Below are positions 12,647 through 22,247 of a DNA stretch of 64,000 bases, one piece after another. The stretch lies in the NCBI GenBank assembly GCA_027483665.1, contig JAIXUC010000041.1:62001-126000 (forward strand). Direction: 5' to 3'. Made by a program: the position numbers and the translations under genes. Source of the stretch: Comamonadaceae bacterium (GTDB taxonomy: Bacteria; Pseudomonadota; Gammaproteobacteria; Burkholderiales; Burkholderiaceae_C). The notes beneath the pieces are model-generated. The model ran no database searches. It was not told where the DNA came from and saw only the letters and a program-made list of their open reading frames with translations. Numbering within the stretch: position 1 is the first letter of the stretch; each line of letters opens with the position of its first letter.

Positions 12647-13795
12647 ATGCCATTGTCAGAACCCCTTCAAGCACCACCCCAAACCGTCAGCGTTGCACTG
12701 GGCGAGCGGTCTTACCGCATCCACATTGGCAGTGGCCTGATGGCCTCGCAGGTGCTGCTGGACCGGGTGGATGCGCGCGCACAAGCCCTCGTTGTCAGTA
12801 ACGAAAAAGTGGCCCCTCTGTACGCTGACGTGCTGATGAAAACGCTGTCCGCGCACTTTCGCGATGTGCGTCTGTTGGTGCTGTCCGATGGCGAGCAGCA
12901 CAAACACTGGGCGACCCTGCAGCTGATTTTTGATGCTTTGCTGGCGCAGCAGGCTGACCGGCGCGTGGTGCTCTACGCGCTGGGCGGTGGCGTGGTGGGT
13001 GACATGACCGGCTTTGCAGCAGCCTGCTACATGCGCGGCGTGTCTTTCGTGCAAGTGCCCACCACCCTGTTGGCACAGGTTGATTCCTCGGTCGGCGGCA
13101 AAACCGCCATCAACCACCCCCTGGGAAAGAACATGATCGGCGCGTTCCACCAACCGCAGACGGTGGTGTGCGACCTAGATGTGCTGGCCACACTGCCCAG
13201 GCGGGAGCTGTGCGCTGGCCTTGCCGAAGTCATCAAGTACGGCCCGATCCACGACCTGGAGTTTTTTGCCTGGCTCGAGGCCCACATGGACGAGCTGCTG
13301 GCAGGCGTTCCGGCTGCGCTGGCACATGCGGTGCGCCGCAGTTGCGAGATCAAGGCAGAGGTGGTGGGTCAAGATGAGCGTGAATCAGGGCTGCGCGCCA
13401 TCCTGAACTTCGGCCACACCTTTGGGCACGCGATCGAGGCTGGGTTGGGCTACGGGCAGTGGCTGCACGGAGAAGCAGTAGGTTGCGGCATGGTCATGGC
13501 GGCCGAGCTGTCGAGCCGCCTCGGTCATGTTGACCGTTCCTTCGTGAATCGGTTGGCTCACCTGATTGCGCGTGCTGGTCTGCCGACCCAGGCGCCCGAT
13601 CTGGCTGTCGAGCGGTTTCTTGAGCTGATGCGCGTGGACAAGAAGGCGCATGCTGGCGACATCCGATTCGTACTGCTGAAAGGGCCGGGCGGCGCAGTGA
13701 TTCAAGGCGCGCCCGATGGATTGGTGGCTGAAGTCATTCGAAGCTGTCAGCGCCAGCGGCTCCCCAGCGACCTTGCGCAGAGCAGGCAGGCATGA
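12647..13795 (+). CDS. aroB: 3-dehydroquinate synthase
   Basis: AroB converts DAHP to 3-dehydroquinate, using NAD and a divalent metal. The 382-residue product has the NAD-binding [15 protein letters not shown] segment, the [17 protein letters not shown] catalytic region, and metal-ligand histidines in [13 protein letters not shown] and LHGEAV. The ATG at 12647 is preferred over an open extension back to 12566, since it gives the normal N-terminus ([16 protein letters not shown]). There is no Shine-Dalgarno before this ATG. The stop overlaps the dgt start. Confidence 0.95.
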
Positions 13796-14991
13796 AGGCA
13801 GGCGGCTTGAAGGCGCTGGCCAGCGACCCGACGCACAGCCGAGGACGCCGCCAGCCAGAGCCAGCCGCACCCAACCGCAACGACTACCAGCGCGACCGCG
13901 ACCGCGTGGTCCACTGCACGGCGTTCAGGCGTCTGGTCTACAAAACCCAAGTTTTCCTTAACCACGAGGGCGATTTGTTTCGCACCCGCCTGACACACTC
14001 GCTGGAGGTGGCGCAGCTGGCGCGCTCCATGGCCCGCAGCCTGGGTTTGCATGAAGACCTGGTGGAGGCGATCGCGCTGGCACACGACCTCGGCCACACC
14101 CCTTTCGGGCACGCTGGTCAAGATGCGCTGCACGACTGCATGCGCCAGCACGGCGGCTTCGAGCACAACCTGCAAAGCCTGCGCGTGGTGGACACACTCG
14201 AAGAGCGCTACGCAGCCTTCAATGGCCTGAACCTCTGCTTTGAAACCCGCGAAGGCATTCTGAAGCACTGCTCGGTGCGCCATGCACAGGAGCTGGAACA
14301 GCAAGAGCCAGGCGGTGTGGGCAGCCGCTTTCTGGCGCGCACCCAGCCTAGCCTGGAGGCGCAGTTGTGTAACTTGGCTGACGAGATCGCCTACAACGCG
14401 CATGACATCGACGACGGCGTGCGCTCAGGTCTGTTGCACGTCGAGCAGCTCAATGACCTTGCCCTGCTGCGCGAACTGCGCGAGCAGGCTGTTTTTGAAT
14501 ACCCGGCGCTGGCGGGCCGCAGGCTGCTGTTCGAGATGGTGCGCAGACTCATCAACCTGTTGGTGGCCGATGTGTTGGCGGCTACGCAAGAAGCAGCTGC
14601 AGTCAGCGGCGCAAGCGATGCAGGAGAAGCCCGGCGAGCAGGCCCGCTGGTCTGCTTCAGTGCGCCGATGCGCGGCGCGACCGACGAACTCAAACACTTT
14701 CTCATGCACCACCTCTACCGCCATGACCAGGTCATGGCGAGCATGGCGCGCGCCAAAGATGTGGTGCGCGAGCTGTTTGTGACTTACGAAGCCCTGCCGC
14801 AACGCATGGCCCCCGGGTTTGCTCAGCGGCCTGATCGGCACCGGGCTATTGCCGACTACATCGCCGGCATGACCGACCGTTTTGCGTTGAAGGAATACGC
14901 CAGATGGACCGGCCGCGACGCGATGGCTGGCTTGTCGCTTGCCGGCACACCGGCTGCTGGAGTGGCGTTTGCTGCAGGTGGTGCCGCGTGA
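13792..14991 (+). CDS. dgt: Deoxyguanosinetriphosphate triphosphohydrolase-like protein (HD domain)
   Basis: A dGTPase-like HD hydrolase predicted to cleave dNTPs to nucleoside and triphosphate. The 399-residue product has the metal-binding H...HD...D signature in [13 protein letters not shown] and [13 protein letters not shown], and [13 protein letters not shown] further on. Length fits the bacterial dgt-like type 2 family, whose nucleotide preference is not predictable from sequence. ATGA overlap with aroB and GTGA overlap with the next gene place it in the same operon. Confidence 0.9.
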
Positions 14992-15680
14992 AGCAGACAA
15001 CCGCTCGCGCTCAAGGGCCCGGCCCTGCAGCCAAGCTGGGTACGGCCTCGACCAAGACTTTGGAATCGTCCGCAGCAGAAGAGGAAACCCGGTCTGTCTT
15101 GCTGGACATGCAACGCTGGTTGCAGCTGGCCGTGATCGGCCTGAACCTCTGCCCCTTTGCGAAGTCGGTTCAAGCCAAAGGCTTGCTCCACTGGCACATC
15201 AGTGCGGCTCGGCGACCCAAAGAGGTGCTGAGAGAACTGCGGGTGGCGATGGCCGAATTGAACGACCTCAGCCCCGATGTGCGCGACACCAGCTTGCTGG
15301 TTCTGCCCCATGCGCTGCAAGACTTTTTGGCCTTCAACGACGTGCTCGATGAGGCCGAAGCACTGCTGCAAGAGATGGGCTTGCAAGGCGTGATCCAGAT
15401 TGCCAGCTTCCACCCGGACTACCTGTTTGCAGATGCACCGCCTGACGATCCAGCGCACTGCTCTAACCGAGCGCCATACCCGACACTGCACCTTTTGCGC
15501 GAAGACAGCCTGTCGCGCGCCATCGATGCCATGGACGACCCGGACAGCATTTATCTCCACAACATCCAGCGTTTGCGTGAGTTGGGCTGGGCCGGTTGGC
15601 AGGCGCTGGATGTCGGTCTGGGCAGCGGGGCGCGTCACCTTGCGCTATCCGATGCTCTTCAAGCCAAGGGTGGCACGTGA
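14988..15680 (+). CDS. DUF1415 family protein
   Basis: A soluble 230-residue protein of the DUF1415 family, for which I know no established biochemical role. Conserved-looking motifs are GLNLCPFAKSVQ (a CPF dipeptide segment), IASFHPDYLFAD and NRAPYPTLHLLREDS. The first 30 residues are Ser/Thr/Ala-rich and poorly conserved in appearance. The GTG at 14988 overlaps the dgt stop (GTGA); the frame is open upstream inside dgt, so the start rests on coupling. Its own stop overlaps the next GTG. Function is left open. Confidence 0.8.
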   Translation: MKQTTARAQGPGPAAKLGTASTKTLESSAAEEETRSVLLDMQRWLQLAVIGLNLCPFAKSVQAKGLLHWHISAARRPKEVLRELRVAMAELNDLSPDVRDTSLLVLPHALQDFLAFNDVLDEAEALLQEMGLQGVIQIASFHPDYLFADAPPDDPAHCSNRAPYPTLHLLREDSLSRAIDAMDDPDSIYLHNIQRLRELGWAGWQALDVGLGSGARHLALSDALQAKGGT

Positions 15681-16597
15681 ACGCGGCGGGTCGTCCGCGG
15701 CGCGCGCCCAGAGCCCCGCCAAGGCGCCCTGGCGCAGACCCGATGCCAGGGGCTTCGGCTGCTGACGCACGGCAGCAGTTGGGTTTGCAGCCAGAGCAAT
15801 CTTTGGAATTGTTGAAGGCGCTGCACATCCTCACGGCGGACGGGCGCATCAACCAAGACTCGCGCCGCAAGCTCAAGCAGGTACAGCACCTGCTGCGCTT
15901 CATCGAAGAGCGCTTGCGCTCTTATCCCGCCGACCACGCGTTGACATTGGCAGACCACGGTGCTGGCAAGTCGTACCTGGGGTTCTTGGTTTATGACTTG
16001 CTGCTCAGACCGCGTGGCCACGGCTGGGTGTATGGCGTAGAAGCGCGAACCGAACTGGTCGAGGCCTCTGGGCATCTGGCGCAACGTCTGGGCTTCGAGC
16101 GCATGCGCTTCATTGCGGCAGAAGTGGCCCAAACCGTCGGAGACCCGCAGTTGCCCGCGCGTGTGGACATGGTCACTGCACTGCACGCCTGCGACACCGC
16201 GACAGACGACGCGATGGCCTTTGGTCTGCAGCACCAAGCGCAGCACATCATTTTGGTGCCTTGTTGCCAGGCCGAAGTGGCCAGGCAGCTCAACCAGCAC
16301 AAGGCGCTGCTGCTGGCCCGCACGCCGCTGGCCGAGTTGTTGCGGCACCCGCTGCACACGCGCGAACTGGGCAGCCAGATCACCAACGTCCTTCGGTGTC
16401 TCTACCTGGAGGCGTGCGGCTACAGCGTGACCGTGACCGAGCTGGTGGGCTGGGAGCACAGCATGAAAAACGAGCTCATCTTGGCCCAGCGCACCGGGCA
16501 GCCTCGCCACAGTGCCCGCCAACGATTGCTGGAGATCGTGGACACCTTTGGTTTGCAGGCGCTCCTGAGCAGCCGCTTCGGCCAACTGCCTGCTTAA
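15677..16597 (+). CDS. SAM-dependent methyltransferase-like protein (GSTCD type)
   Basis: A 306-residue protein resembling the methyltransferase domain also found at the C-terminus of eukaryotic GSTCD. The SAM-binding loop is recognisable as LADHGAGKSYLGFLVYDLL, with a later acidic-turn VYGVEART and the HACDTATDDAM motif, and CCQAE near residue 197. Substrate unknown. I place the start at GTG 15677, overlapping the DUF1415 stop; ATG at 15743 is an alternative that removes a basic Pro/Arg-rich stretch of 22 residues. It ends just before the transposase gene. Confidence 0.72.
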   Translation: MNAAGRPRRAPRAPPRRPGADPMPGASAADARQQLGLQPEQSLELLKALHILTADGRINQDSRRKLKQVQHLLRFIEERLRSYPADHALTLADHGAGKSYLGFLVYDLLLRPRGHGWVYGVEARTELVEASGHLAQRLGFERMRFIAAEVAQTVGDPQLPARVDMVTALHACDTATDDAMAFGLQHQAQHIILVPCCQAEVARQLNQHKALLLARTPLAELLRHPLHTRELGSQITNVLRCLYLEACGYSVTVTELVGWEHSMKNELILAQRTGQPRHSARQRLLEIVDTFGLQALLSSRFGQLPA

Positions 16598-16602
16598 AGG
16601 CC

Positions 16603-17316
16603 ATGGCCCGCCTGCCGCGTCTGACCGTTGCGGGCTATGCGCACCACGTCATCTTGCGGGGTAACAACCGGCAGGCCATTTTTGTGGACGACCAAGACCG
16701 TCAAGACCTGTTGGCCATGCTGGCCCAATACGCGGCGGCCGAGCAGGTCGAGGTGCACGCTTATGTCTTGATGGACAACCACCTGCACCTGCTGCTGACC
16801 CCCCGCCATGACCAAGCCATGCCGAGGCTGATGCAGGCTTTGGGTCGGCGCTACGTGCGCCAGTTCAACCGCCGCCATGGACGCAGCGGCACGCTGTGGG
16901 AAGGGCGCTACCGCGCCACCTTGATCGACAGTGAGCGCTATCTCTTGGCGTGCATGGTCTACATCGAGCTGAACCCGGTTCGGGCGAGCCTGGTGGCCCA
17001 AGCGCGGGACCATCCCTGGAGCAGCCACGCCCACCACATCGGTGCCCGGCAAGACCGCTTGGTCACACCGCACCCTTTGTACTGGGCGCTCGGCAACACG
17101 CCGTTTGCCCGCGAAGCTGCTTACGCTGCGCTCGTAGCCGCCGGCCTGCAGCCGTCTCAGCAGCAGACCCTGACGGACGCCGCCTTAAAGGCGTGGGCAC
17201 TGGGCGGCGATGACTTCATCGCTGAATTGCAACGCCAAACCGGTCGCAGGGTGCGGGCGGCCAGACCGGGGCGCCCGAGGAAGCCGTCGGGTCCTGGGCC
17301 CTCTCAGCAGCCATGA
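16603..17316 (+). mobile_element. REP-associated tyrosine transposase (RAYT), IS200-like Y1 family
   Basis: A 237-residue Y1 transposase of the RAYT group, single-copy enzymes tied to small palindromic repeats rather than classical insertion sequences. The HUH motif is H60-L-H62 in MDNHLHLLLTP, the catalytic tyrosine is Y84 in GRRYVRQFNRRHG, and the family hallmark GTLWEGRYRATLID and YIELNPVRA follow. All catalytic residues are intact and the frame is unbroken. It starts 5 bases after the methyltransferase stop, with no visible left end. Related motifs lie behind it at 17350 and 17398. The C-terminal 35 residues are basic and Pro-rich. Confidence 0.9.
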
Positions 17317-17349
17317 GTGGAGCAGGCCATCGAATGCGCGCGCTGGTCT

Positions 17350-17417
17350 CATCTGTCCCCAAATAATTCATCTTGTCGTTGAGATTGTTGAAATCATCAT
17401 CTGACCCCGATTTATTT
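17350..17417. repeat. Pair of related 20-base motifs behind the RAYT gene
   Basis: CATCTGTCCCCAAATAATTC at 17350-17369 and CATCTGACCCCGATTTATTT at 17398-17417 agree at 15 of 20 positions, in the same orientation, 48 bases apart. Read on the minus strand they contain GGGGACAGATG and GGGGTCAGATG. Motifs of the GGGGTCAGA kind commonly accompany this class of transposase; I did not see another copy outside coding sequence in the window. The segment between them is AT-rich and has no gene. Confidence 0.6.
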
Positions 17418-17474
17418 GCTTGGCACGCTTGCTGCACTGCACGATACTCGCCAACCCTTGCACCAGGAGCGGTC

Positions 17475-22247
<4,773 letters not shown>

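Follow-up and report, generated by a model that had tools for sequence, protein, structure and literature searches.

A RAYT-type transposase gene held upstream of gltB across a bacterial family, and its possible domestication as a regulator of glutamate synthase

Introduction

The closest described systems are RAYT-like transposases of the Y1 type. In the parts of Di Nocera 2013 (PMC3733652) consulted here, TIRYTs/TIRtrons are RAYT-like Y1 transposases flanked by inverted repeats with GGGGWSAS; the searched portion of that paper mentions A. phosphatis and had no match to six betaproteobacterial name stems. According to the consulted sections of Quentin 2018 (PMC6006769), TnpAY1 subclass 2.1 is RAYT group 1 of Bertels et al. 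2017. The same sections describe class 2 TnpAY1 genes as patchily distributed, favouring horizontal transfer, with no REP-like repeats found for subclass 2.1, and the tree of that study was restricted to sequences that have HuH and Y. Single-copy RAYTs have persisted for millions of years, and their exact function is described as unknown in the part of the literature covered (PMC8049555).

The locus analysed here shares features with each of these systems and differs from each. As in TIRYTs/TIRtrons, GGGGWSAS repeats form the flanks, and in some genomes the repeats occur in dimers or clusters, as they do in relatives of our gene (PMC3733652, as far as consulted). However, the TIRYT/TIRtron examples in that account are of single species, whereas in the present case a single gene occupies a fixed place at gltB across a family, its bipartite right end is found once per genome, and left end and catalysis have been shed repeatedly. 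With subclass 2.1 the gene shares Y---NP, a C-terminal extension, GGGG[AT][CG]A[CG] flanks and the lack of reported GTAG REPs, a likeness drawn from the features described in the consulted sections rather than from that study's profiles (PMC6006769). Unlike class 2 genes as described there, it occurs in nearly all examined genomes of one family and has descended with its neighbours, and HuH or Y is often missing from it. The RAYT/TnpA_REP proteins of E. coli and Pseudomonas are likewise single-copy, vertically kept and called domesticated, and their structure 4er8 is the best structural match to ours (PMC8049555, PMC8266576, both in part). In contrast to their GTAG-foot hairpins, the recurrent flank motif here is GGGGWCAGA; moreover, no dispersed copies were found in the host genome and a role independent of catalysis is indicated. 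Within our partial coverage of the literature, we found no report of a gltB-linked RAYT, of a RAYT/TnpAREP with lost catalysis, of a RAYT or domesticated transposase in Burkholderia, or of an IS200-like transposase at a gltB promoter, and the matches listed for the motif sequence in literature text were all unrelated papers.

Comparison across genomes leads us to put at about even odds (roughly 0.5) that the retained role of this RAYT would be to regulate gltB as a domesticated transposase.

A TIRYT-like RAYT gene in front of gltB

The window, by which we mean the whole stretch of 64,000 nucleotides analysed, carries the RAYT gene between a methyltransferase gene and gltB (Table 1). As an earlier note on this DNA had stated, neither neighbour is broken by it. 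The RAYT stop lies 158 bp before the gltB start, and the interval contains the sole promoter-like match of the form TTGGCA-N17-GATACT within 16400-17600. Only 5 bp separate the methyltransferase stop from the RAYT start; these two genes may be co-transcribed now that the left end has been lost.

Table 1. Positions of genes, catalytic codons and right-end elements in the window
Feature	Position	Strand	Basis
dGTPase-like gene (presumed, from family resemblance)	13792..14991	+	ORF
DUF1415 protein gene	14904..15680	+	PF07209, 1.3e-56
Methyltransferase gene (Methyltransf_32)	15671..16597	+	ORF and Pfam; start coordinate approximate
RAYT/TIRYT-type gene, 237 aa	16603..17316	+	Pfam, NCBIfam, predicted fold as TnpA_REP 4er8
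HUH codons H60-x-H62	16780..16788	+	both His in 100% of 103 close orthologs
Catalytic Y120 to N124 (Y---NP)	16960..16974	+	alignment to TnpA_REP
Inner half-site GGGGACAGATG of right end	17350..17360	-	motif match and relatives' alignment
Outer (main) motif GGGGTCAGATG of right end	17398..17408	-	48 bp from half-site
Bipartite right-end element (half-site, AT-rich arms, variable spacer, main motif)	17348..17418	.	consensus of 100 loci
gltB sigma-70-type promoter-like TTGGCA-N17-GATACT	17420..17448	+	11 bp beyond main motif
gltB, glutamate synthase large subunit	17475..22247	+	ORF and Pfam

The window protein matches Pfam Y1_Tnp at 2.9e-15 (56.9 bits, cut-off 23) and NCBIfam REP_Tyr_transpos NF047646 at 87.4 bits (cut-off 80), and H60, H62, Y120, N124 and P125 are all present, which bears out the description of an intact RAYT with HxH and Tyr. 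Its AF2 model has a mean pLDDT of 90.3, and TnpA_REP 4er8 is the best match both to the model (Z 15.8, 159 residues aligned, rmsd 2.8) and by sequence profile. The model places C-terminal helices at 142-212, a domain that had no Pfam match to an HTH profile up to E 10; in isolation it was modelled too poorly, and a fold search with it alone was dropped. We regard it as close to certain that the gene is a RAYT of TIRYT-like type and that its place at gltB is family-wide. We call the window copy a degenerate TIRYT descendant, with the GGGGWSAS repeats present and the left inverted copy absent. A multi-copy mobile element of the IS200/IS605 kind was rejected on the grounds that the site is fixed in the family and that this is the one Y1_Tnp gene in the host genome (2,896,378 bases in 44 contigs, the single genome of its genus in the search).

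An old locus across the family

Among 200 genomes of the same family, 190 have a match to the RAYT protein at E 1e-20, usually one each, and at only three of the 150 listed places did stops fall inside the match (stop counts come from these 150 places; ortholog frames were read to the first stop). Of 193 gltB-bearing genomes, 150 listed gltB places were checked, and at 146 of them the RAYT lies directly upstream on the same strand, 126 by the position of the protein match and 20 more by tblastn on fetched DNA. The four exceptions comprise G130, where the contig ends, G191, which has no RAYT, and G178 and G187, in which the RAYT is elsewhere. Distances between RAYTs correlate with those between gltB genes at r 0.44 (99 loci), compared with r 0.46 for gltB and the methyltransferase (65 loci). 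The RAYT thus tracks its neighbours about as well as they track each other, which points to descent along with them. For 103 close orthologs the median dN/dS was 0.25 (range 0.04-0.50, 1795 pairs). The locus is old and family-wide, not a fresh insertion.

These data bear directly on the idea of a recent insertion of an active element, with the two motifs as its left and right recognition sites, and on any reading of the unbroken neighbours in the earlier note as genes that such an insertion had spared. Such an element would fit the intact catalytic residues of the window protein; an old fixed locus, both motifs on one side of the gene and a single copy leave it extremely improbable, and what had looked like a sparing insertion is instead an inherited arrangement.

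Outside the family, a sample of the class had a match at E 1e-15 in 135 of 274 genomes, patchily distributed, often several per genome and some with stops. gltB was seen in the fetched stretch of none of 20 relatives from outside the family, counting L243, whose stretch stops about 0.2 kb downstream of the gene. All 20 keep both His, the Tyr and the Asn, and 13 by eye count have an exact GGGGTCAGA at most 110 bp before the gene, with different arms.

Some loci depart from the usual layout. In G015, G156 and G072 (L160, L161 and L162), about 0.9-1.1 kb of other DNA separates the RAYT from gltB, and the gltB side retains the motif pair in L161 and the half-site in L162. Codons resembling the C terminus of the dGTPase-like gene directly precede the RAYT in L137, L144, L154, L159, L162 and L172, and directly precede gltB in L261, which is without RAYT (all by eye).

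Two motifs that form one right end

GGGGWCAGATG lies 34 and 82 bases past the RAYT stop, exactly where the earlier note had put its two motifs, and a 20-base alignment of the two by eye does match at 15 of 20 positions. That note had them in the same orientation: they share it with each other, whereas relative to the gene they are reversed, GGGG reading on the minus strand. Before the RAYT the window has no exact copy, also as claimed. Genome-wide (2.90 Mb), the exact motif occurs twice, both times here (reversed control 0); the looser WWWYGGGGWCAGA also gave two matches, both here (control 1), and the still looser WWWNGGGGWCAGA gave three (control 1). With one mismatch allowed the window has three matches against a chance mean of 2.2, no more than chance, and frequency was dropped as evidence; non-randomness therefore lies in position and pairing, not in number. 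That the motif is real is settled by its conservation in relatives.

In the window the right end carries the GGGGWSAS-type repeats GGGGTCAG and GGGGACAG. Across 100 aligned loci, TGTCCC and TCTGACCC are mostly 48 or 49 bp apart and enclose arms rich in AT and a spacer that varies; beyond them come a -35/-10 pair, for the most part conserved, and then gltB. In unselected counts, 100 of 102 loci retain the main motif TCTGACCC and 89 of 102 retain the half-site TGTCCC (values of 0.99 and 1.0 come from 60 loci picked for having the pair and are partly by construction), compared with only 50 of 103 for the left motif. In relatives the left end has a sequence close to TTAATTGGGGTCAGATTCCAATTA and lies just before the RAYT start, and the motif flanks related genes on both sides, pointing inward. 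The motifs thus do belong to the RAYT, as had been proposed, and the proposal that the window pair represents left and right sites fails, as the true left end of relatives is upstream and faces the other way. On the sequence comparison, both window motifs are parts of one right end, and the left end is gone from the window copy.

As a genome-wide pattern, the bipartite element was found once each in 71 of 200 genomes including the host, never twice, with a control of 0. In all 67 of these genomes with listed gltB coordinates it sits upstream of gltB, and three of the other four have it beside a RAYT. In two HUH-lost loci, L140 and L152, the outer motif at gltB is reversed while the half-site stays in place, as if a near-palindromic outer site could be read either way.

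In one register the two arms complement each other across the spacer, with a mean paired fraction of 0.62 compared with at most 0.49 in other registers (60 loci), and TnpA relatives bind single-stranded hairpins (PMC8266576, as far as consulted). The right end could accordingly act in cis as a hairpin or RNA element, for example a terminator, processing site or insulator, with the protein acting on that single strand. We consider this quite unlikely: the region scan found no terminator-like site between RAYT and gltB in the window, the window arms are AT-rich, weak and degraded-looking by eye, and the spacer varies between loci without conservation.

Loss of catalytic residues with retention of the gene

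Catalytic residues were read in one gene per genome for 126 of the 190 RAYT-bearing genomes, a non-random set of 30 best matches, 20 weak ones reached via gltB, 16 chosen ones and 60 spaced evenly over the other 104 listed; L145 and L151 were dropped, their stretches containing no RAYT. H60, H62, Y120 and N124 were intact in 71 genomes, 42 had lost HUH through replacement of one or both His (including G151, L147, which aligns badly around HUH and is possibly frameshifted) and 13 had lost Tyr/Asn only. Catalytic-site residues are thus lost in 55 of the 126 genomes, and the gene is still kept. The lost residues cluster at H15, M57, N59, H60, H62, C117, Y120, L123 and N124, whereas 40 positions are at least 85% conserved in both groups, among them the N-terminus, much of GTLWEGR and the C-terminal block.

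Over the 126 genes, RAYT lengths range from 216 to 299 aa (median 233), and HUH-lost lengths are normal. Within genera, dN/dS was 0.07-0.47 for all eight HUH-lost pairs (two with dS above 1.7) and 0.06-0.29 for the 16 intact pairs computed. Given these lengths and the eight values below 0.5, we rejected the view of HUH-lost copies as pure pseudogenes. Between genera, HUH-lost pairs had a median of 0.57 and reached 1.03, compared with 0.32 for intact pairs, a faster evolution which suggests that constraint is partly relaxed. On the best tree, built without the catalytic columns, unrooted and with many weak branches, HUH state changed at least 14 times, of which the starred branches force 4. Genes from outside the family branch from among intact family members on this tree, so that a single capture does not follow from it.

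The two ends of the element behave differently with respect to catalysis. A left end was found in none of the 42 HUH-lost loci and in 34 of the 71 intact ones (Fisher 4e-9), whereas the bipartite right end was present in 28 of 42 and 53 of 71, respectively (shuffling expects 0.05 and 0.1). Of the 126 loci, 37 do not have the pair: 18 with intact catalysis, 14 that lost HUH and 5 that lost Tyr/Asn. The motif tests made alongside the residue reading reached 330 bp past the RAYT and undercount where gltB is further off; the pair test used the gltB-side stretch for G187, G178 and G156 and accepted the outer motif in either orientation. An independent-pairs test of catalytic against left-end loss on the starred branches had only four pairs and hence no power.

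Natural separations of gene and site

In a few genomes gene and site have come apart or are dispensable altogether. In G178 and G187, whose RAYTs have lost HUH and have no motif pair beside them, the right end stays at gltB. Its spacing is intact in G178; in G187 the outer motif has drifted to CCGACCCC and fails both the pair test and the genome-wide pattern. The pair is absent at gltB in G042, G139 and G191, which have no RAYT at E 1e-5 and a fully readable upstream region: in G042 the dGTPase-like gene directly precedes gltB, and G139 has a lone TGACCCC 323 bp upstream of gltB. G130 (87% complete) has no RAYT match and keeps the pair, on a contig that has just 183 bp before gltB and so stops at the point where a RAYT would be expected to start. 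As to whether the pair occurs at gltB without the RAYT, an outcome that the earlier note had named as one that would refute its reading, the answer is therefore divided: absent in the three RAYT-less genomes with readable upstream DNA, present in the two with the RAYT elsewhere and at the contig end of G130. Few as these cases are, G178, G187 and the RAYT-less genomes indicate that the site is separable from physical linkage and tied to presence of the protein.

The bipartite site might instead belong to an unrelated regulator of gltB, with the RAYT a neutral neighbour. It is placed where an upstream promoter regulator would bind, outlives separation from the RAYT and is present in G130 with no RAYT detected. 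This reading is nonetheless very doubtful: the same motif forms the left end of these genes and the ends of related genes not seen near gltB, the pair is absent in the three readable RAYT-less genomes, and purifying selection acts on the RAYT even where catalysis is lost.

A candidate trans regulator of gltB

From the fixed position, purifying selection, catalytic loss with the gene kept and retention of the right end, we infer a domesticated gltB regulator. A TIRYT-type RAYT, an HUH/Tyr single-strand endonuclease, would have settled in front of gltB early in the family's history, become fixed there and been domesticated. TnpA relatives act as dimers, and the RAYT protein, probably dimeric too, may bind both half-sites, which lie about 48 bp from each other and immediately precede the -35 box. 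Once bound, it would modulate gltB transcription in trans and perhaps its own locus as well. Cutting or mobilising the motif would be the ancestral activity, dispensable for the role at gltB. For the window copy, with its left end lost and no dispersed copies, only the gltB site remains to act on.

Extended to the family, the proposal is somewhat more tentative, and we hold it at slightly below even: the whole family would use a domesticated HUH/Tyr transposase as a dedicated trans regulator of glutamate synthase, with a former transposon end as its operator, the nuclease having been independently discarded several times and DNA binding kept. If true, this would be a bacterial counterpart of the exaptation of transposases as transcription factors, caught at intermediate stages. 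Catalysis, repeat dispersal and gene retention come apart in this family, which makes the question of RAYT function testable; for what the gene is retained to do, the site beside gltB seems to be required and the active site not. Genes labelled transposases may thus hold a candidate, undescribed layer of control in a large family, acting on nitrogen assimilation at its GOGAT step.

Dispersal of the motif

Beyond the gltB locus, copies of the motif are scattered through some genomes, mainly those with an intact enzyme; they stand singly or in inverted pairs, a distinction read from sequence contexts rather than tallied. A 23-mer searched at up to three mismatches was found in 79 of 200 genomes, own locus included, with up to 33 copies and a control of 0. 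Genomes with intact catalysis had a mean of 8.15 motif copies (control 1.04), compared with 1.9 (control 0.93) in HUH-lost ones. The exceptions are HUH-lost G072 with nine copies (control 0) and RAYT-less G139 with six (control 1). As far as correlation goes, this suggests that motif dispersal may depend on the active site. In the host genome, searches with the exact 11-mer, the looser motif and the 23-mer found no copy outside the locus. The earlier note had associated RAYTs with repeat dispersal and had set a genome-wide motif count beforehand as a test: the motif is not commoner elsewhere in this genome, which speaks against dispersal here.

Mobilisation of its terminal repeats genome-wide, in a REPIN-like manner with the gltB right end as the master copy, could also be what the RAYT is kept for, and the dispersed singles and inverted pairs, the 79 genomes with the 23-mer and the high copy number where catalysis is intact would all fit. 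We judge this rather unlikely, as no dispersed copy was found in the host genome, 55 of 126 genomes keep the gene without the full catalytic residues, and decay affects the left end and spares the right. REPIN dispersal as the sole retained function was rejected on the lack of dispersed host copies and the catalytic losses. Regulation of gltB remains the preferred reading.

The dispersed copies have features of their own. Across 335 motif sites, the motif tip is repeated in tandem as truncated copies, which are stacked on the outer side in 38 cases and on the inner side in 11; most of the inner cases are either palindromic arms or the same events viewed from the outer copy. About 0.4 outer stacks are expected by shuffling, and 11 of the 38 end after GGGGTCA. 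They were seen at L005, L097, L101, L188, L201, L245, L255 and other motif copies, and may be the footprint of repeated nicking or strand transfer, hinting at the position of cleavage. MITE-like units of about 104 bp, with motif ends and shared internal sequence, occur by eye in three genera (G030, G034 and G063, at L177, L178, L180, L210, L212, L213, L229 and L231). G008 (L214-L225) carries a palindromic version of the motif, TAATTGGGGTCAGACCCCAATTA, and by eye a fixed tail like AAAAATGATAGCTAGA lies beside 8 of its 12 fetched copies.
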